A stretch of 64,000 nt of DNA from Luteimonas yindakuii. GTDB taxonomy: Bacteria > Pseudomonadota > Gammaproteobacteria > Xanthomonadales > Xanthomonadaceae. The notes below the pieces were generated by a model. The model had not been told where the DNA came from and did no database searches. It was given only the letters and a program-made list of their open reading frames with translations. Shown here piece by piece: positions 56,660-64,000 of the stretch. A program made the position numbers and the translations under genes. Position 1 is the stretch's first letter. Each line of letters starts with the position of its first letter. The DNA lies in assembly GCF_004803715.2 (NCBI RefSeq), contig NZ_CP039383.2, positions 1,178,001 through 1,242,000 of the forward strand, read 5' to 3'.

Positions 56660-57838
56660 TCATGCGCGGGCATGGCGCGGCAGGGCCTGGGTGGCATGGT
56701 GGCGTGCCTGCGCGTCCGCCTCGCGTGCGGCCTCCAGCGAAGCGATCTCGGCCGGGGGCAGCGCTGCGAGCGCGGACTCGACGATGGCGGGAATGCTCAG
56801 GAAAGCGATCCGGCCCTGAAGGAAGGCTGAAACCGCGACCTCGTTGGCGGCATTGAGCACCGCCGGCGCCGAACCGCCGGCGTCCAGCGCCTGCCGGGCG
56901 AGGCGCAGGCAGGCGAAGGTGTCCATGTCCGGCTCCTCGAAGTCGAGCCGCCCATGGGCGATGAGGTCCAGCGGTGGCACGCCCGACGGAATGCGGGCCG
57001 GCCAGGCGAAACCGACGGCGAGCGCGGTGCGCATGTCGGGCAGGCCGAGCTGGGCCAGCGTGGAACCGTCGGTGTATTCCACCAGCGCGTGGACCAGGCT
57101 CTGCGGATGCACGACCACGCCGATGCGGTCGTTGCCGAGGCCGAACAGGTGATGGGCCTCGATCACCTCGAGCCCCTTGTTCATCAGCGTCGCGGAATCG
57201 ACCGAGATCTTCGGGCCCATCGACCATTTCGGATGCGCCACCGCCTGTGCCGGGGTGATCGATGCAAGCGAAGCGCGGTCGCGGCCACGGAATGGCCCAC
57301 CGGAGGCAGTCAGCACCAGGCGCTCGACACCAGCGCTGACGCGACCATCGGGCAGGCACTGGAACAGCGCGTTGTGTTCGCTGTCGATCGGCAGGATGCA
57401 GGCGCCGGCCTGGCGTGCGGCCGCCATCACCAGGTCGCCGGCCATCACCAGCGATTCCTTGTTGGCCAGCAGCAGCCGCTTGCCGGCGCGTGCAGCGGCC
57501 AGGGTGGAGTCGAGGCCGGCGGCGCCGACGATCGCCGCGACCACGCTGTCGCAGGCGTCGCCGGCCACCAGCTCACAGAGGGCGTCGTCGCCCGCATGCG
57601 CATGCGTCGAAAGACCGGCCGCGCGCAGGGACTCGCACAGAGCGCCGTACAGGGCTGGGTCGGCGATCACCGCATGGGCCGGACGATGCTGCACGCACAA
57701 CGCGACGAGTGCATCGACGTTGCGGCCGGCCGCCAGCACGCTGGCCGACAACTGTTGCGGATGGCGGGCGATGACGTCGAGCGCGGAGCTGCCGATCGAG
57801 CCGGTCGCGCCCAGGACCGCGACGCGTTGCCGCTTCAT
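56660..57838 (-). CDS. dxr: 1-deoxy-D-xylulose 5-phosphate reductoisomerase
   Basis: Dxr (IspC) makes methylerythritol phosphate, the committed step to isoprenoids. The 392-residue protein begins [20 protein letters not shown] (NADPH site) and carries the [12 protein letters not shown] and [11 protein letters not shown] segments of the catalytic loop. ATG at 57838 is the family start; the longer frame to 57955 overlaps cdsA. It is a typical neighbour of cdsA and rseP. Confidence 0.97.
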
Positions 57839-59571: not shown

Positions 59572-60129
59572 TCAGACCGCCATCAGCTCCTGTTCCTTGG
59601 CCTTGACCACGTCGTCGACGTCCTTGATCGCCTTGTCGGTGAGCTTCTGGATGTCGTCCTCGCTGCGGCGCTCGTCGTCTTCCGAGATCAGCTTCTCCTT
59701 GAGGAGTTCCTTGACCTGCTGGTTGGCATCGCGGCGAATGTTGCGGATGGCGACCTTGGCGTCCTCACCCTCGCCGTGCACGACCTTGGACAGCTCGCGA
59801 CGACGCTCCTCGGTGAGCGCCGGCAGGTTCAGGCGGATGGTGGTGCCAGCGGTGTTCGGCGTCAGGCCGAGATCGGAGGCGAGGATCGCCTTCTCGACGG
59901 CCGCGACCATGGGCTTTTCCCACGGCGTGATCGTGAGCGAGCGCGCGTCGCTGACGGACACGCTCGCGACCTGCGACAGCGGCATGTCGGAACCGTAGTA
60001 GTTCACCTTCAGGTGTTCGACCAGGGCGGTCGAAGCGCGGCCCGTGCGGACCTTGACCAGCGTGTGGCGAAGCGCGTCGACGCTCTTGGCCATGCGGGTC
60101 TGGGTGTCTTTCTTGATATCGTCGAGCAT
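59572..60129 (-). CDS. frr: Ribosome recycling factor
   Basis: RRF with EF-G splits the post-termination ribosome. The 185-residue protein matches the family throughout (RTGRASTALVEHLKVNYYG, then RLNLPALTEERRRELSKVV) and has the usual length. pyrH lies 96 bp upstream and uppS follows closely, as in E. coli. Confidence 0.98.
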   Translation of the reverse strand: MLDDIKKDTQTRMAKSVDALRHTLVKVRTGRASTALVEHLKVNYYGSDMPLSQVASVSVSDARSLTITPWEKPMVAAVEKAILASDLGLTPNTAGTTIRLNLPALTEERRRELSKVVHGEGEDAKVAIRNIRRDANQQVKELLKEKLISEDDERRSEDDIQKLTDKAIKDVDDVVKAKEQELMAV

Positions 60130-60225
60130 CGCCGGCTCCAGCTGCGGTCGGGAACCGCGGGATTATACGTGCACCGCGCAGCGCGCCGGGACCCGTGCAC
60201 GGTCCGGCCGCATCCGGTGCACGGA

Positions 60226-60945
60226 TCAGCGGCCGGTGACGAGGGTGCCGATCGCCTCGCCGCGCAGGATGCGCAGCAGCACGCCGGGCTGGCTCATGTC
60301 GAACACGCGCATCGGCAGGCTGCTGTCGCGGGCCAGCGCGAACGCCGCGGTGTCCATCACCTCGAGCCCGCGCGAGATCACTTCGTCGTAGGTGAGCTGC
60401 TCGAAGCGCACGGCATCGGCATGCTTCTTCGGATCCTTGTCGTAGACGCCATCGACCTTGGTCGCCTTCAGCAGCAGGTCGGCGCCGATCTCGATCGCGC
60501 GCAGCGCAGCGCCCGAATCGGTGGTGAAGAACGGGCTGCCGACGCCGGCGGCGAAGATCACCAGCCGGCCCTTCTCGAGGTGGCGGATGGCGCGACGACG
60601 GATGTAGTCCTCGCAGACGTCGTTGATCTTGATCGCGCTCATCACCCGCGCCTTGGCGCCGAGCTTTTCGAGCGCGTCCTGCATGGCCAGCGCGTTGATG
60701 ACGGTGGCCAGCATGCCCATCTGGTCGCCGGTGACGCGGTCCATGCCACTGGCGGCGAGCCCCGCACCGCGGAAGATGTTGCCACCGCCGATGACCAGCG
60801 CGACTTCCGCGCCGGCGTGCTGGGCTTCGATCACCTCGCGCGCGAGACGGCCGATGACCTTGGGATCGATGCCGTAGTCCTCGTCGCCCATCAGGGCCTC
60901 GCCGGACAGTTTGAGCAGGACGCGGCGATAGGCGAGTGTGGACAT
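60226..60945 (-). CDS. pyrH: UMP kinase
   Basis: PyrH phosphorylates UMP to UDP and is allosterically controlled by GTP and UTP. The 239-residue protein has the amino-acid-kinase features [22 protein letters not shown] and the [11 protein letters not shown] loop. ATG at 60945 is the family start; the longer frame overlaps the HDOD gene. E. coli has tsf-pyrH-frr; here the HDOD-GGDEF gene and the repeat region lie between tsf and pyrH. Confidence 0.97.
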
Positions 60946-61012
60946 GCGGGTCTCGGGGTGGGTAAACCGGCAGGATTCTAGCCGATCGCCCGGTGACCGC
61001 GACGACGACGCG

Positions 61013-62521
61013 CTATGCCGGATCTGGCGAGTACTCCGCGCGCGCCTGCATCGCCACCTGGTTGCGACCCTCGCGCTTTGCGCCATAGAGCGCTTCGTCG
61101 GCGGCGGCCAGCATGGCGTGCGCATCGACGAAGCGGGCATCCTCGCCATGGGTGGCGAGGCCCGCGGAGAAAGTGATGTGGATGCCCGCCCCATCCACCG
61201 TGGCCAGCGGGCAGGCGGCGATGTCGGCGAGGATGCGCTCGAGGATCTGCTTGCCGCGCTCGGCACCGCAACGGCGCAGCACTACCAGGAATTCCTCGCC
61301 GCCATAGCGGGCGAGCAGGTCGCTGGCGCGGAGCATCCGCATCAGCGCCTGGCTGAACTCGCGCAGCACGGTGTCGCCGACGAGGTGGCCGTAGCGGTCG
61401 TTGACCAGCTTGAAGTCGTCGAGGTCGATGAAGGCGATCGACAGCGGCTCGCGACGGCGTTCGGCTTCCTCGAACGCCTGCTGCAGGACATCCTCGAGCT
61501 GCCGGCGGTTGTAGGCGCCGGTCAGCGGGTCGCGCCGCACCAGGTCGTCGAGCTCGCGCGTGCGTGCCTTCAGGCGCGTCGCTTCCCGCACCGCCAGCTG
61601 CAGGTCCTCGCGCTCGAGCAGGTGGCGGATCATCGCCAGCTCGCGTCCCTGCTGCTCGATCTCGCGCGCGTGTTCCTCGCGATGGATGCGCACGTCGAAC
61701 AAGGCCGACATCTCCGGCGCCAGCGCGGACAGGCGTTCCAGCAGCGTCTCGATATCGAGTGGTTCCACGTCGAGTGCCACGGCCACCTGGTCGAGCTGTT
61801 GGCGGGCGTGGTCGTCGTCAGGGCGGATCCAGACATCGGCCAGCAGGCCGGCCGCCACCACGCAGCCGAGGGTGCGATCGCCGGTCTCGATGGTCTCGCT
61901 GCCACGGATCATCCGCTGCAGGTAGCCCGACAGTCCCCAGCGGCCGGCGAGCCAGGCGCCGACCTCGGTATGGTCGCCGCCAAGGTGGTCGCGCTCGACT
62001 TCCAGCCGCTCCGGGCCCTGCAACGGCACCTGCGGCAGTTCCGCGTACCGTTCGGGCATGGCGTGGAGCAGGGCGAGGATGCCGATGTCCTGCAGCAGGG
62101 CGCCGAGCATCAGTTCCTCGGGGCGTTCGAGCTGCAGCCGCTCCGCCAGCAGGCGGGCCGCCATCGCCGCGAGCGCGCTGCGCTGCCATACGCGTTCGTG
62201 CATGCCGGCCAGCGCGTGGTCGGGCTGCAGCGTGCGGGCGACGACGAATCCCAGCGCCAGGCTCAGCGCGGCGTTGAGCCCGAGCAGCGCGAGCGCCTGC
62301 GAGAGCGTGTCCACGCGCCTGCGGTGTGCACTCGCATACAGCGGCGAATTGGCGATGCGCAGCAGGCGCGCGCTCAGTGCAGGATCAAGCGCGATGGCAT
62401 CGGCGGCCATGGCCAGGTCGGTCGCGGGATCCTCCGCCAGCTCGATCATCCGCAGCGCCACGCCCGGAAGCGTCGGCAGCGTCCGGCAGTGCGAGAGCAG
62501 GGAAACCAGTTCGGGGTGCAT
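61013..62521 (-). CDS. HDOD-GGDEF signalling protein
   Basis: The 502-residue protein has an N-terminal HDOD domain (about 5-205, [21 protein letters not shown]) and a C-terminal diguanylate cyclase domain with active site GGEEF and the I-site RASD five residues before it. HDOD domains are HD-like folds usually lacking catalytic metal sites and act in signalling. No transmembrane segment is seen, so it is probably cytoplasmic. It could read an intracellular cue and make c-di-GMP. The start is followed by a 781-bp non-coding region upstream. pyrH begins 67 bp downstream. Confidence 0.92.
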
Positions 62522-62784
62522 GGCTGTGGTCGGTATGCGTCGACAGACATATCGGCGCGTTCCGACGAACCTTTAGCGCGCGGGTGATGCGCGTCACGCC
62601 AGTGGAGGGCGGTTGTTCATGCAGGCGAGTGAGCCAGAGCCAACAGGCGTGGGACATTCCGCGCACGCCCGTCAGAAGACGCGTCTGCAGGTGTTTGCTG
62701 CGCACGGCTGCGGCATCACCGGCTCGAGAACGGTAAGCAAATGTGAAGTTTTCCGATCGCGGCAGCTTTCATAGCAGTCCGGGC

Positions 62785-62900
62785 GGCCCGCCGCGGCCCC
62801 AGGGGGATGTCCAGCCGGATATCTCCGCGTCCTGCTACCACATCCGGCCGCCGGCCATCCATGGCCGGCTCTGGACATCCCCCTGCGTCCGCGGCGGGCC
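62785..62900 (-). repeat. Inverted-repeat element, copy A
   Basis: Outer arms at 62785-62814 and 62871-62900 pair over 30 positions with two mismatches, including a perfect 13-bp block (62802-62814 with 62871-62883). The 56-nt loop contains a perfect 9-bp palindrome at 62850-62869 (GCCGGCCAT/ATGGCCGGC, centre CC). The reverse complement of 62824-62870 matches copy B over 47 positions with three differences. Confidence 0.8.
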
Positions 62901-63014
62901 CCGGGCTGTCATCCCGTCTGGGAGAAAGGGCGAAGACCGAAGGGGGCGTCCTGGCAGGCGACGCCGGCTGCGGCCGCGGTTGCTGTCCGTGCCGGAGCCG
63001 GCGGACGTCTGAGT

Positions 63015-63129
63015 CCGTCGCGTGCACCGGGGGGTGTGCGGACAGCCGGCCATGGATGGCCGGCGGCCGGCCGTGGTAGCTGGACGCGGACTTCGGCCGG
63101 GGAAGCACATCCCCCGGTGCGGGCGACGG
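63015..63129 (+). repeat. Inverted-repeat element, copy B
   Basis: Outer arms at 63015-63039 and 63105-63129 pair with a perfect 7-bp outer block and a 16-nt inner block with one G-T pair. The interior has the same palindrome in reverse orientation (63045-63064, centre GG), and 63044-63090 is the 47-nt block shared with copy A. Arm sequences differ from copy A, but each element keeps its own arms complementary, apart from wobble pairs. Confidence 0.8.
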
Positions 63130-63247
63130 GCAGCGCGAAGCCCACCGGAGCCGCTCTGCTCGTCGCCTCCAATGCCGGGATCCAGGGAGCCCGGACGCAG
63201 CGGAGAGCTCTCCACCGCCGGTTTCGGCAAGGGCAAGGTTCGAACAA

Positions 63248-63277
63248 AGAAAAAGCCGCGGAGGTCCGCGGCTTTTT
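63248..63277 (-). terminator. Rho-independent terminator of tsf
   Basis: On the minus strand a 12-bp perfect stem AAAAAGCCGCGG/CCGCGGCTTTTT with a 4-nt loop ends in a T tract (TTTTTC). It lies about 25 bp after the tsf stop codon and is the best terminator in the window. Confidence 0.92.
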
Positions 63278-63302
63278 CCGGTACGGCGCGAAGCGTGACG
63301 CG

Positions 63303-64000
63303 TCAGGCCAGGCCGGCCTGCTTCATCACTTCGGCGGCGTAGTCTTCCACCACCTTCTCGATGCCTTCGCCCACGGCCAGGCGCTGGAAGCCGACGACTT
63401 CGGCGCCGGCGGCCTTGAGCACCTGCTCGACGGTCCTGTCGGTGTCCAGCACGTACGGCTGGCCGGCCAGCGTGACCTCGTTGACGATCTTGGCGATCTT
63501 GCCGCTGATGATCTTCTCGAGGATCTCGGCAGGCTTGGCCTTGTCCTTGTCGGACATCTTCGCCAGTTCGATTTCCTTTTCCTTGGCGACGAAGTCGGCC
63601 GGGACGTCGGCGGCGGTGTTGTACGGCGGGTTCATCGCAGCAACGTGCATTGCCAGGCCGCGGGCCAGCTCGGCATCACCGCCCTTGAGCTCGACCAGCA
63701 CGCCGATGCGGCCGCCGTGCACGTAGGCGGCGGTGTTGTTGCCGCTGTCGACGCGCGCCATGCGACGCACCTGCACGTTCTCGCCGACCTTGGCGATCAG
63801 TGCGGCGCGGGCTTCCTCGACGCTCTCGCCGGACGCGAGCTTCGCGGCCTTGAGGGCTTCGACGTCGGTACCGTCCACGGCCAGCGCGGCAGCGGCCACG
63901 GCTTCGGTGAAGGCAAGGAAGTTCTCGTCCTTGGCCACGAAGTCGGTCTCGGAGTTGACCTCGACCAGCACGGCACGACCGTCCGCCTGCGCGGTGGCCA
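63303..64000 (-). CDS. tsf: Elongation factor Ts, 5' end outside window
   Basis: EF-Ts regenerates EF-Tu-GTP. The frame stays open to the right edge, so the N-terminal UBA and part of the core are missing. Visible residues include [16 protein letters not shown], the HGGRIGVLV core strand and the C-terminal [16 protein letters not shown]. The upstream tsf-rpsB partner lies beyond the window. A strong terminator directly follows. Confidence 0.96.

Follow-up and report, generated by a model that had tools for sequence, protein, structure and literature searches.

The window, a 64,000-nt stretch of the Luteimonas yindakuii genome, carries near its right end two large hairpins, A (62785-62900, plus strand) and B (63015-63129, opposite strand), which are one old copy of a dispersed short mobile element. 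These limits agree with the initial annotation, as does the 47-nt core common to A and B in opposite orientation, with 44 identities and 3 differences. The outer stem of A (62785-62814/62871-62900) is formed by 30-nt arms that are complementary at 28 of 30 positions (93%), also as first described. The arms of B had been said to pair at all but one or two positions; they measure 25 nt (63015-63039/63105-63129) and are 88% complementary, which leaves three mismatches. Arm pairing, DNA folding and model R1, described below, support both hairpins, which contain 76-77% G+C. R1 scores A at 118.2 bits (E 7.5e-20, A being itself included in the model) and B at 88.8 bits. A spacer of 114 nt (62901-63014) separates them.

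The element exceeds the span first assigned to it. Global alignment to the relative G017 shows that a stretch of approximately 62708-63205 is absent at the matching site, and these approximate limits would enclose the whole unit, probably an ISL3-type MITE copy with decayed ends. The A-side end (62743-62784, plus strand), identified by left-flank alignment of 52 units, is decayed and related to GGTTCTTCTCCCGATCGAGGGG...AGTCCGGGCGG, and the B-side end (63130-63205, plus strand), delimited by right-flank alignment of the 52 units and the empty site in G017, is decayed as well. This copy has no readable terminal inverted repeat (TIR) or target duplication, and an intact 19-nt end, with up to three mismatches allowed, was not found anywhere in the window. 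Adjoining the element and outside it is a terminator-like hairpin with a T run (63249-63278, minus strand), whose 14-nt arms are 100% complementary. It lies downstream of a minus-strand gene ending at 63303, which we take from its sequence to be tsf, and is conserved at the G017 site. Elsewhere in the window, R1 gives insignificant matches at 56833-56949 (minus strand, E 0.47) and 57396-57500 (plus strand, E 0.33); their order is opposite to that of the family, and they may be due to chance.

Folding with DNA parameters reveals that each half is a T, with a long outer stem closing a junction from which two inner hairpin arms emerge. One inner arm contains the conserved part TCCGCGTCCWGCTMCCA, and the other is capped by TCCA. 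In A, the alignment and the DNA fold place the former arm (P2) at 62815-62847 and the latter (P3, GCCGGCCATCCATGGCCGGC, loop TCCA) at 62850-62869, both on the plus strand. In B, the DNA fold places P3 at 63045-63064 on the minus strand, reading GCCGGCCATGGATGGCCGGC on the plus strand. Folding had been recommended in the initial annotation; with each copy taken together with 8-11 nt of flank, it yields z scores of -10.4/-8.7 for A and -6.9/-6.8 for B on the two strands, and none of 200 shuffles reached the native value in any case.

The core is not unique, as a genome-wide search demonstrates. The L. yindakuii genome (G000; 3,040,302 bp, one contig) gives 70 matches to A at E<=10 (best 40 of 74 candidates scored) and 58 to B (40 candidates scored), counts that pool strong and weak matches as well as both strands of the palindromes. 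The 29 loci examined contain at least 27 A copies, at least 26 B copies and at least 24 facing A-B pairs, and 29 loci of G017 contain 28 facing pairs. No A-B neighbors up to 400 nt apart have any non-facing layout in either genome; at L. granuli locus L170, one B does not face its A. Additional same-orientation copies adjoin some pairs in G000 and G017. Spacers range from 106 to 287 nt in the 24 own-genome pairs and from 99 to 253 nt in G017; at the former lengths, the units hold no transposase gene of their own. Matches at E<=0.001 are present in 22 of 61 genomes searched, and among the matches listed, full-length ones occur only in G000, G017, L. padinae (G003), L. granuli (G016), L. colneyensis (G018) and Lysobacteraceae bacterium NML91-0213 (G026). 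Facing pairs are present at L. arsenica loci too.

Some copies depart from the standard arrangement. In two A copies of the own genome (L024:1500-1615 and L025:1500-1615), the inner arm P2 resembles that of B (CCGGCCGAAGTCCGC...), as though pieces might pass between A and B by gene conversion. At L174:5300-6100, B is cut down to short arm remnants, and L204, the G017 site of unit 218031, holds a fusion of an A arm to a B arm. These units, which are missing most of a hairpin, look like products of hairpin deletion.

The proposal that pairing is kept while arm sequences change is well supported by covariation and by folding of single copies. The first alignment, made with MAFFT, comprises 50 copies, 25 A and 25 B, hand-picked from 207 distinct copies, one B having entered through an overlapping locus. 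A hand-written structure was used; gaps disrupted an automatic consensus fold of 108 A copies, and automatic pairing of alignment A1 was ragged. Standard pairs account for 90.3% of cells compared with 83.2% after shuffling, double-change cells number 155 compared with 60.6, and covariation is 0.175 compared with 0.071, slid versions of the structure giving 0.045 or less. The contrast between A and B accounts for much of the double change, and pair types are no more numerous than in shuffles (26 compared with 26.8; 377 of 500 shuffles are equal or higher).

Model R1 was built from this alignment and the hand-written structure, and the second alignment, which was fitted to it, comprises 47 hits drawn from 29 loci, 25 belonging to other genera. 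Here, changes on both sides (double compensatory) are found in 38 of 40 pairs, with 553 double-change cells compared with 170 after shuffling. Pairing cells amount to 90.0% (57.0% shuffled) and covariation to 0.695 (0.159 shuffled, 0.131 or less when slid). The covariance analysis suggested earlier gives covariation above shuffled and slid controls in both alignments. Because the second alignment is fitted to the model, hits were also folded singly. The T is formed by 41 of 43 hits compared with 38 of 430 mononucleotide shuffles; the four hits omitted from the 47 are two reverse-strand self-hits, one weak hit and one partial hit.

The pair cells of the second alignment (n = 1793) comprise 1580 Watson-Crick pairs, 33 GT, 56 AC and 124 other mismatches. 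Wobble pairs are usually tolerated in RNA, and their scarcity here on either strand favors DNA over RNA. AC exceeds GT by 56 to 33, a slight excess of wobble on the other strand and a weak hint of RNA there. An RNA role for the hairpins, for instance in processing, stability or termination at mRNA 3' ends, would also suit their location mostly behind genes: among 51 units of G000 and G017 with a called gene on both sides (of 52 units; the gene calls are heuristic, and some that overlap the unit are surely wrong), 23 are in convergent, 24 in tandem and 4 in divergent contexts. However, such positions are also expected from insertion into T-tracts, and each unit holds both orientations, so that no transcript presents one consistent T. 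Rfam gives three matches at E<=1 in window positions 60000-64000, all below the gathering score and none on A or B. We therefore regard an RNA role as unlikely.

The ends of the element are best seen in L. granuli, where copies up to 98.3% identical over 578 nt (L064/L173) have unlike outer flanks, a sign of recent spread. Many of these copies start with GGTTCTTCTCC and finish with GGAGAAGAACC, which are inverted repeats. Over 37 facing TIR pairs, of which a few are doubtful and probably do not represent elements, the 8-mers on the two sides agree at 57.1% of positions compared with 29.9% when partners are shuffled (maximum 41.2). Exact 8-mers flank four of the 37 (L162, L173, L304 and L310), where 0.18 are expected (maximum 2), and no exact 9-mer is found in this set. 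Flanking 5- to 7-mers are also above control, and low-complexity A/T runs make the duplication length less sharp. The agreement is best explained by 8-bp target duplications, usually in A/T runs. Indeed, A4 or T4 occurs within the outer 10 nt of 39 of 58 element ends with no more than one TIR mismatch, compared with 16 of 6500 random 10-mers taken from intergenic and other DNA of 13 L. granuli loci.

These repeats point to a partner. Of 39 ISL3 and IS1595 loci checked, four (L316, L318, L321 and L327) hold ISL3 elements whose ends form a facing TIR pair of this type, at a spacing of 1304-1310 bp, and the GGTTCTTCTCC ends of the L. granuli copies are common to the ISL3 elements L316, L318 and L321. 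The transposase encoded by L316 belongs to the ISL3 family (NF033550, E 1e-99), and the element has CAACTTTT at both flanks, an exact 8-bp duplication. L316 is the only one of the four with an exact duplication: L318 and L321 lie in T/A runs and have no exact 8-mer, and the flanks of L327 do not match. An 8-bp duplication with an ISL3 element has been reported in the consulted part of PMC11702846. Among 18 testable B-side ends of L. granuli, three, those of the related copies L064, L126 and L173, continue past the TIR with sequence that matches the ISL3 transposase gene at its 3' end with z of 10-14. Beyond the 11-nt TIR, the other 15 B-side ends reach z of at most 5.5, and all 18 A-side ends at most 4.1.

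ISL3 transposases score over the cut-off in 16 of 41 genus genomes. No full ISL3 transposase was found in the own genome, only one sub-threshold match; G017 likewise has one sub-threshold match, and G016 and G018 have no ISL3 match. In G026, six short C-terminal pieces exceed the cut-off and one further match falls short of it, and G003 has a full transposase whose locus holds no facing TIR pair. Given this distribution, the partner is known from other Luteimonas and not from the T-pair genomes themselves. IS1595 was considered as the partner and rejected; it matches in 7 of 41 genus genomes, and none of nine loci has a facing TIR pair. At L341:1468-1730 of NML91-0213, in a stretch that partly reads N, a short, internally deleted ISL3 remnant adjoins a T-pair element and shares its T-tract, which could be read as one terminator used repeatedly as a target.

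Other elements have the same TIRs and a different content. Two without a T match at E<=0.1 are L304 (467 bp, duplication 8/8) and L299 (464 bp, 7/8), and L298, L300, L301 and L312 also lack a T match at this threshold and have flanks that agree poorly; L306, L308 and L313 are TIR elements with a single T. The existence of TIR elements without a detectable T implies that the T does not seem to be required for movement. The T-less L. padinae elements with ISL3-type ends, 460-467 bp in length (L299:492-955, L304:1572-2038 and L298:507-966), probably represent a further MITE family served by the same transposase.

The comparison of G000 and G017 tells of loss. Between two flanking local matches, the place of the window copy measures 494 nt in L. 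yindakuii and 5 nt in G017, where a short AGTCCGGGC resembles the element's own sequence beside A and may be a scar. Of the 24 G000 pairs, 15 correspond to a G017 locus that holds an element and matches in both flanks. The other nine have no such locus, although 17 of their 18 flank tags are found in G017; one of these nine sites is split by 12 kb, and the other eight were aligned. In six of the eight alignments, which were read in whole or in part, hairpin remnants are visible at two G017 sites (218031 and 2125740), and none of the sites read shows a clean insertion. For three of the eight sites (1249458, 1310098 and 1914352), the corresponding position in NML91-0213 carries an element. With remnants in G017 and units at three of these places in NML91-0213, loss in G017 is common.

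The initial annotation likened the pair to a REPIN. The layout does compare with that described in the consulted sections of PMC3116915, in that two inverted hairpins with a spacer, together forming a larger hairpin, occupy extragenic DNA; compensatory changes and clusters of extra copies are further points in common with REPINs and BIMEs. Membership found no support. The units are T folds of about 115 nt and not short REPs, and GTAG (CTAC on the other strand), present in 33 of 113 A and 70 of 110 B copies, is not conserved. A RAYT transposase was sought, as had been advised, and no link to the hairpins was found in the own genome or in the element-bearing genomes searched. Only one Y1 transposase match (L061:1155-2015) occurs in the own genome; it is TIRYT-like and lies between 19-nt inverted repeats, AACGGGGTCAGGTTCACTT, which are 95% complementary and unrelated to A or B. 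They contain GGGGTCAG, which by eye fits the GGGGWSAS motif given for TIRtrons in the consulted part of PMC3733652. Y1 was not found in 14 of 35 element-bearing genomes, including G017 and L. granuli (G016) with its near-identical copies, and none of 30 Y1 loci checked (of 35 Y1 matches) contains a T match at E<=1.

A giant REPIN, in which a RAYT or TIRYT Y1 tyrosine transposase would move the pair on single-stranded DNA, could draw on the inverted hairpins with their spacer and on GTAG in some copies. To our knowledge, Y1 single-strand transposition does not make TIRs with an 8-bp duplication. According to the portion of PMC3733652 that was consulted, Stenotrophomonas has Y1-linked inverted repeats that are self-complementary, and some TIRtrons have paired repeats of this kind. 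Against the genomes in which Y1 was not found, the Y1 loci with no T match, the variable GTAG and the presence of TIRs with a duplication, this explanation is highly improbable. We favor an ISL3-type MITE over a REPIN because copies in relatives share the terminal repeats of ISL3 elements and have flanks that fit 8-bp duplications best, three related L. granuli B-side ends match the ISL3 transposase gene, and no link to Y1 or RAYT was found.

The T hairpins are distributed more widely than these ends. R1 was run on 198 sampled genomes of the family under strict filters, with 18 candidates scored per genome and rough E-values; hairpins were found in 42 of them at E<=0.01, representing 18 of 54 genera, and the best E is below 1e-5 in 28 of the 42. 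In a sample of 151 genomes of the order, eight match; they include G052 (12 matches, best E 6.8e-5) and G042 (2 matches, E 0.0019), which belong to another family, and G058 (1 match, E 0.0013), from a third. At 24 other-genus loci, the best match to the ISL3 TIR within 250 nt of the T hairpins resembles it no better than a reversed-pattern control does. Of 29 loci, 14 have a facing partner in the same plus-then-minus order, one of these partners being weak (E 0.59); another 14 lack a second hairpin that is reliable, and at L224 the two hairpins point the same way. The strings GGCTTCGG/CCGAAGCC in the flanks of other-genus hairpins were an impression only and were set aside, since the reversed control is the same string and hence void.

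It is conceivable, if the less favored view, that the T pair is a mobile element itself, moved by its own enzyme, and that ISL3 ends were acquired later in one lineage only. The occurrence in 42 family genomes and in G052, the TIR matches at the control level and the 14 loci with a facing partner in plus-then-minus order are consistent with this, but the equally many loci without a reliable second hairpin and the same-orientation pair of L224 are not. In a related and similarly tentative reading, the T pair would be its own class of structured foldback DNA, order-wide, served by a structure-specific enzyme and riding on ISL3 ends in Luteimonas. Such a class might keep its shape, namely the outer stem and two arms with RTCCW/ATCCAT-like loops, and let nearly all of the stem sequence drift; this, too, we propose only with reserve.

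We consider it rather probable that A and B are the cargo of a non-autonomous ISL3-type MITE of about 0.5 kb and that the T is a separate module. An ISL3 transposase acting in trans on the element ends would have moved the unit, insertion would have gone into terminator T-tracts, where it should do little harm, and the window copy would now be decaying. The T would be a separate module given that some same-ended elements have no detectable T and that the T occurs in other genera without these ends. Its maintenance as folded DNA, a less certain step, is suggested by near-perfect Watson-Crick arms, free sequence and few wobbles. Either a structure-specific protein may use the T, or its two arms may correct each other when single-stranded.

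As an ISL3-type insertion sequence or bacterial MITE, the element is conventional in its GGTTCTTCTCC terminal repeat, duplication of about 8 bp, T-tract insertion and short, non-autonomous form, and unlike these in carrying two inverted T hairpins of about 115 nt with high G+C. MITEs are typically AT-rich according to the consulted part of the review PMC10969869, which makes no mention of ISL3. Searches of openly licensed PMC papers turned up nothing recognised as this element. Parvoviruses such as AAV have T-shaped terminal repeats. These are alike in shape only, with a T palindrome, two small capped arms and an inverted pair, whereas here the T is internal to transposon ends; no relation is claimed.

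The new part is the cargo, T hairpins kept in shape across family genomes. MITEs are mostly regarded as empty carriers. In this case the cargo of one MITE family is a large DNA fold, conserved in shape, which is found in other genera of the family as well, there with no detectable ISL3 ends. Whether a protein recognises a T-shaped hairpin in these bacteria, and how palindromes of about 115 nt persist, thereby become testable questions. The targeting of T-tracts is a clear example of a harmless insertion niche.

Candidates for an autonomous version, one in which a gene lies between A and B, were rejected. The own-genome singletons L016 and L056 and the NML91-0213 locus L174 look truncated or decayed, and L222 (gap 523) and L230 (gap 904) contain open reading frames among which no transposase was recognised by reading. 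At L171:1900-3550 of NML91-0213, two A copies 1030 nt apart enclose a low-G+C open reading frame of 202 aa, and the second A copy is adjoined by a transposase that by eye looks IS3-like. At L222:1666-2006, a small minus-strand gene resembling, by eye, the antidote of an addiction module lies between facing T hairpins 523 nt apart.
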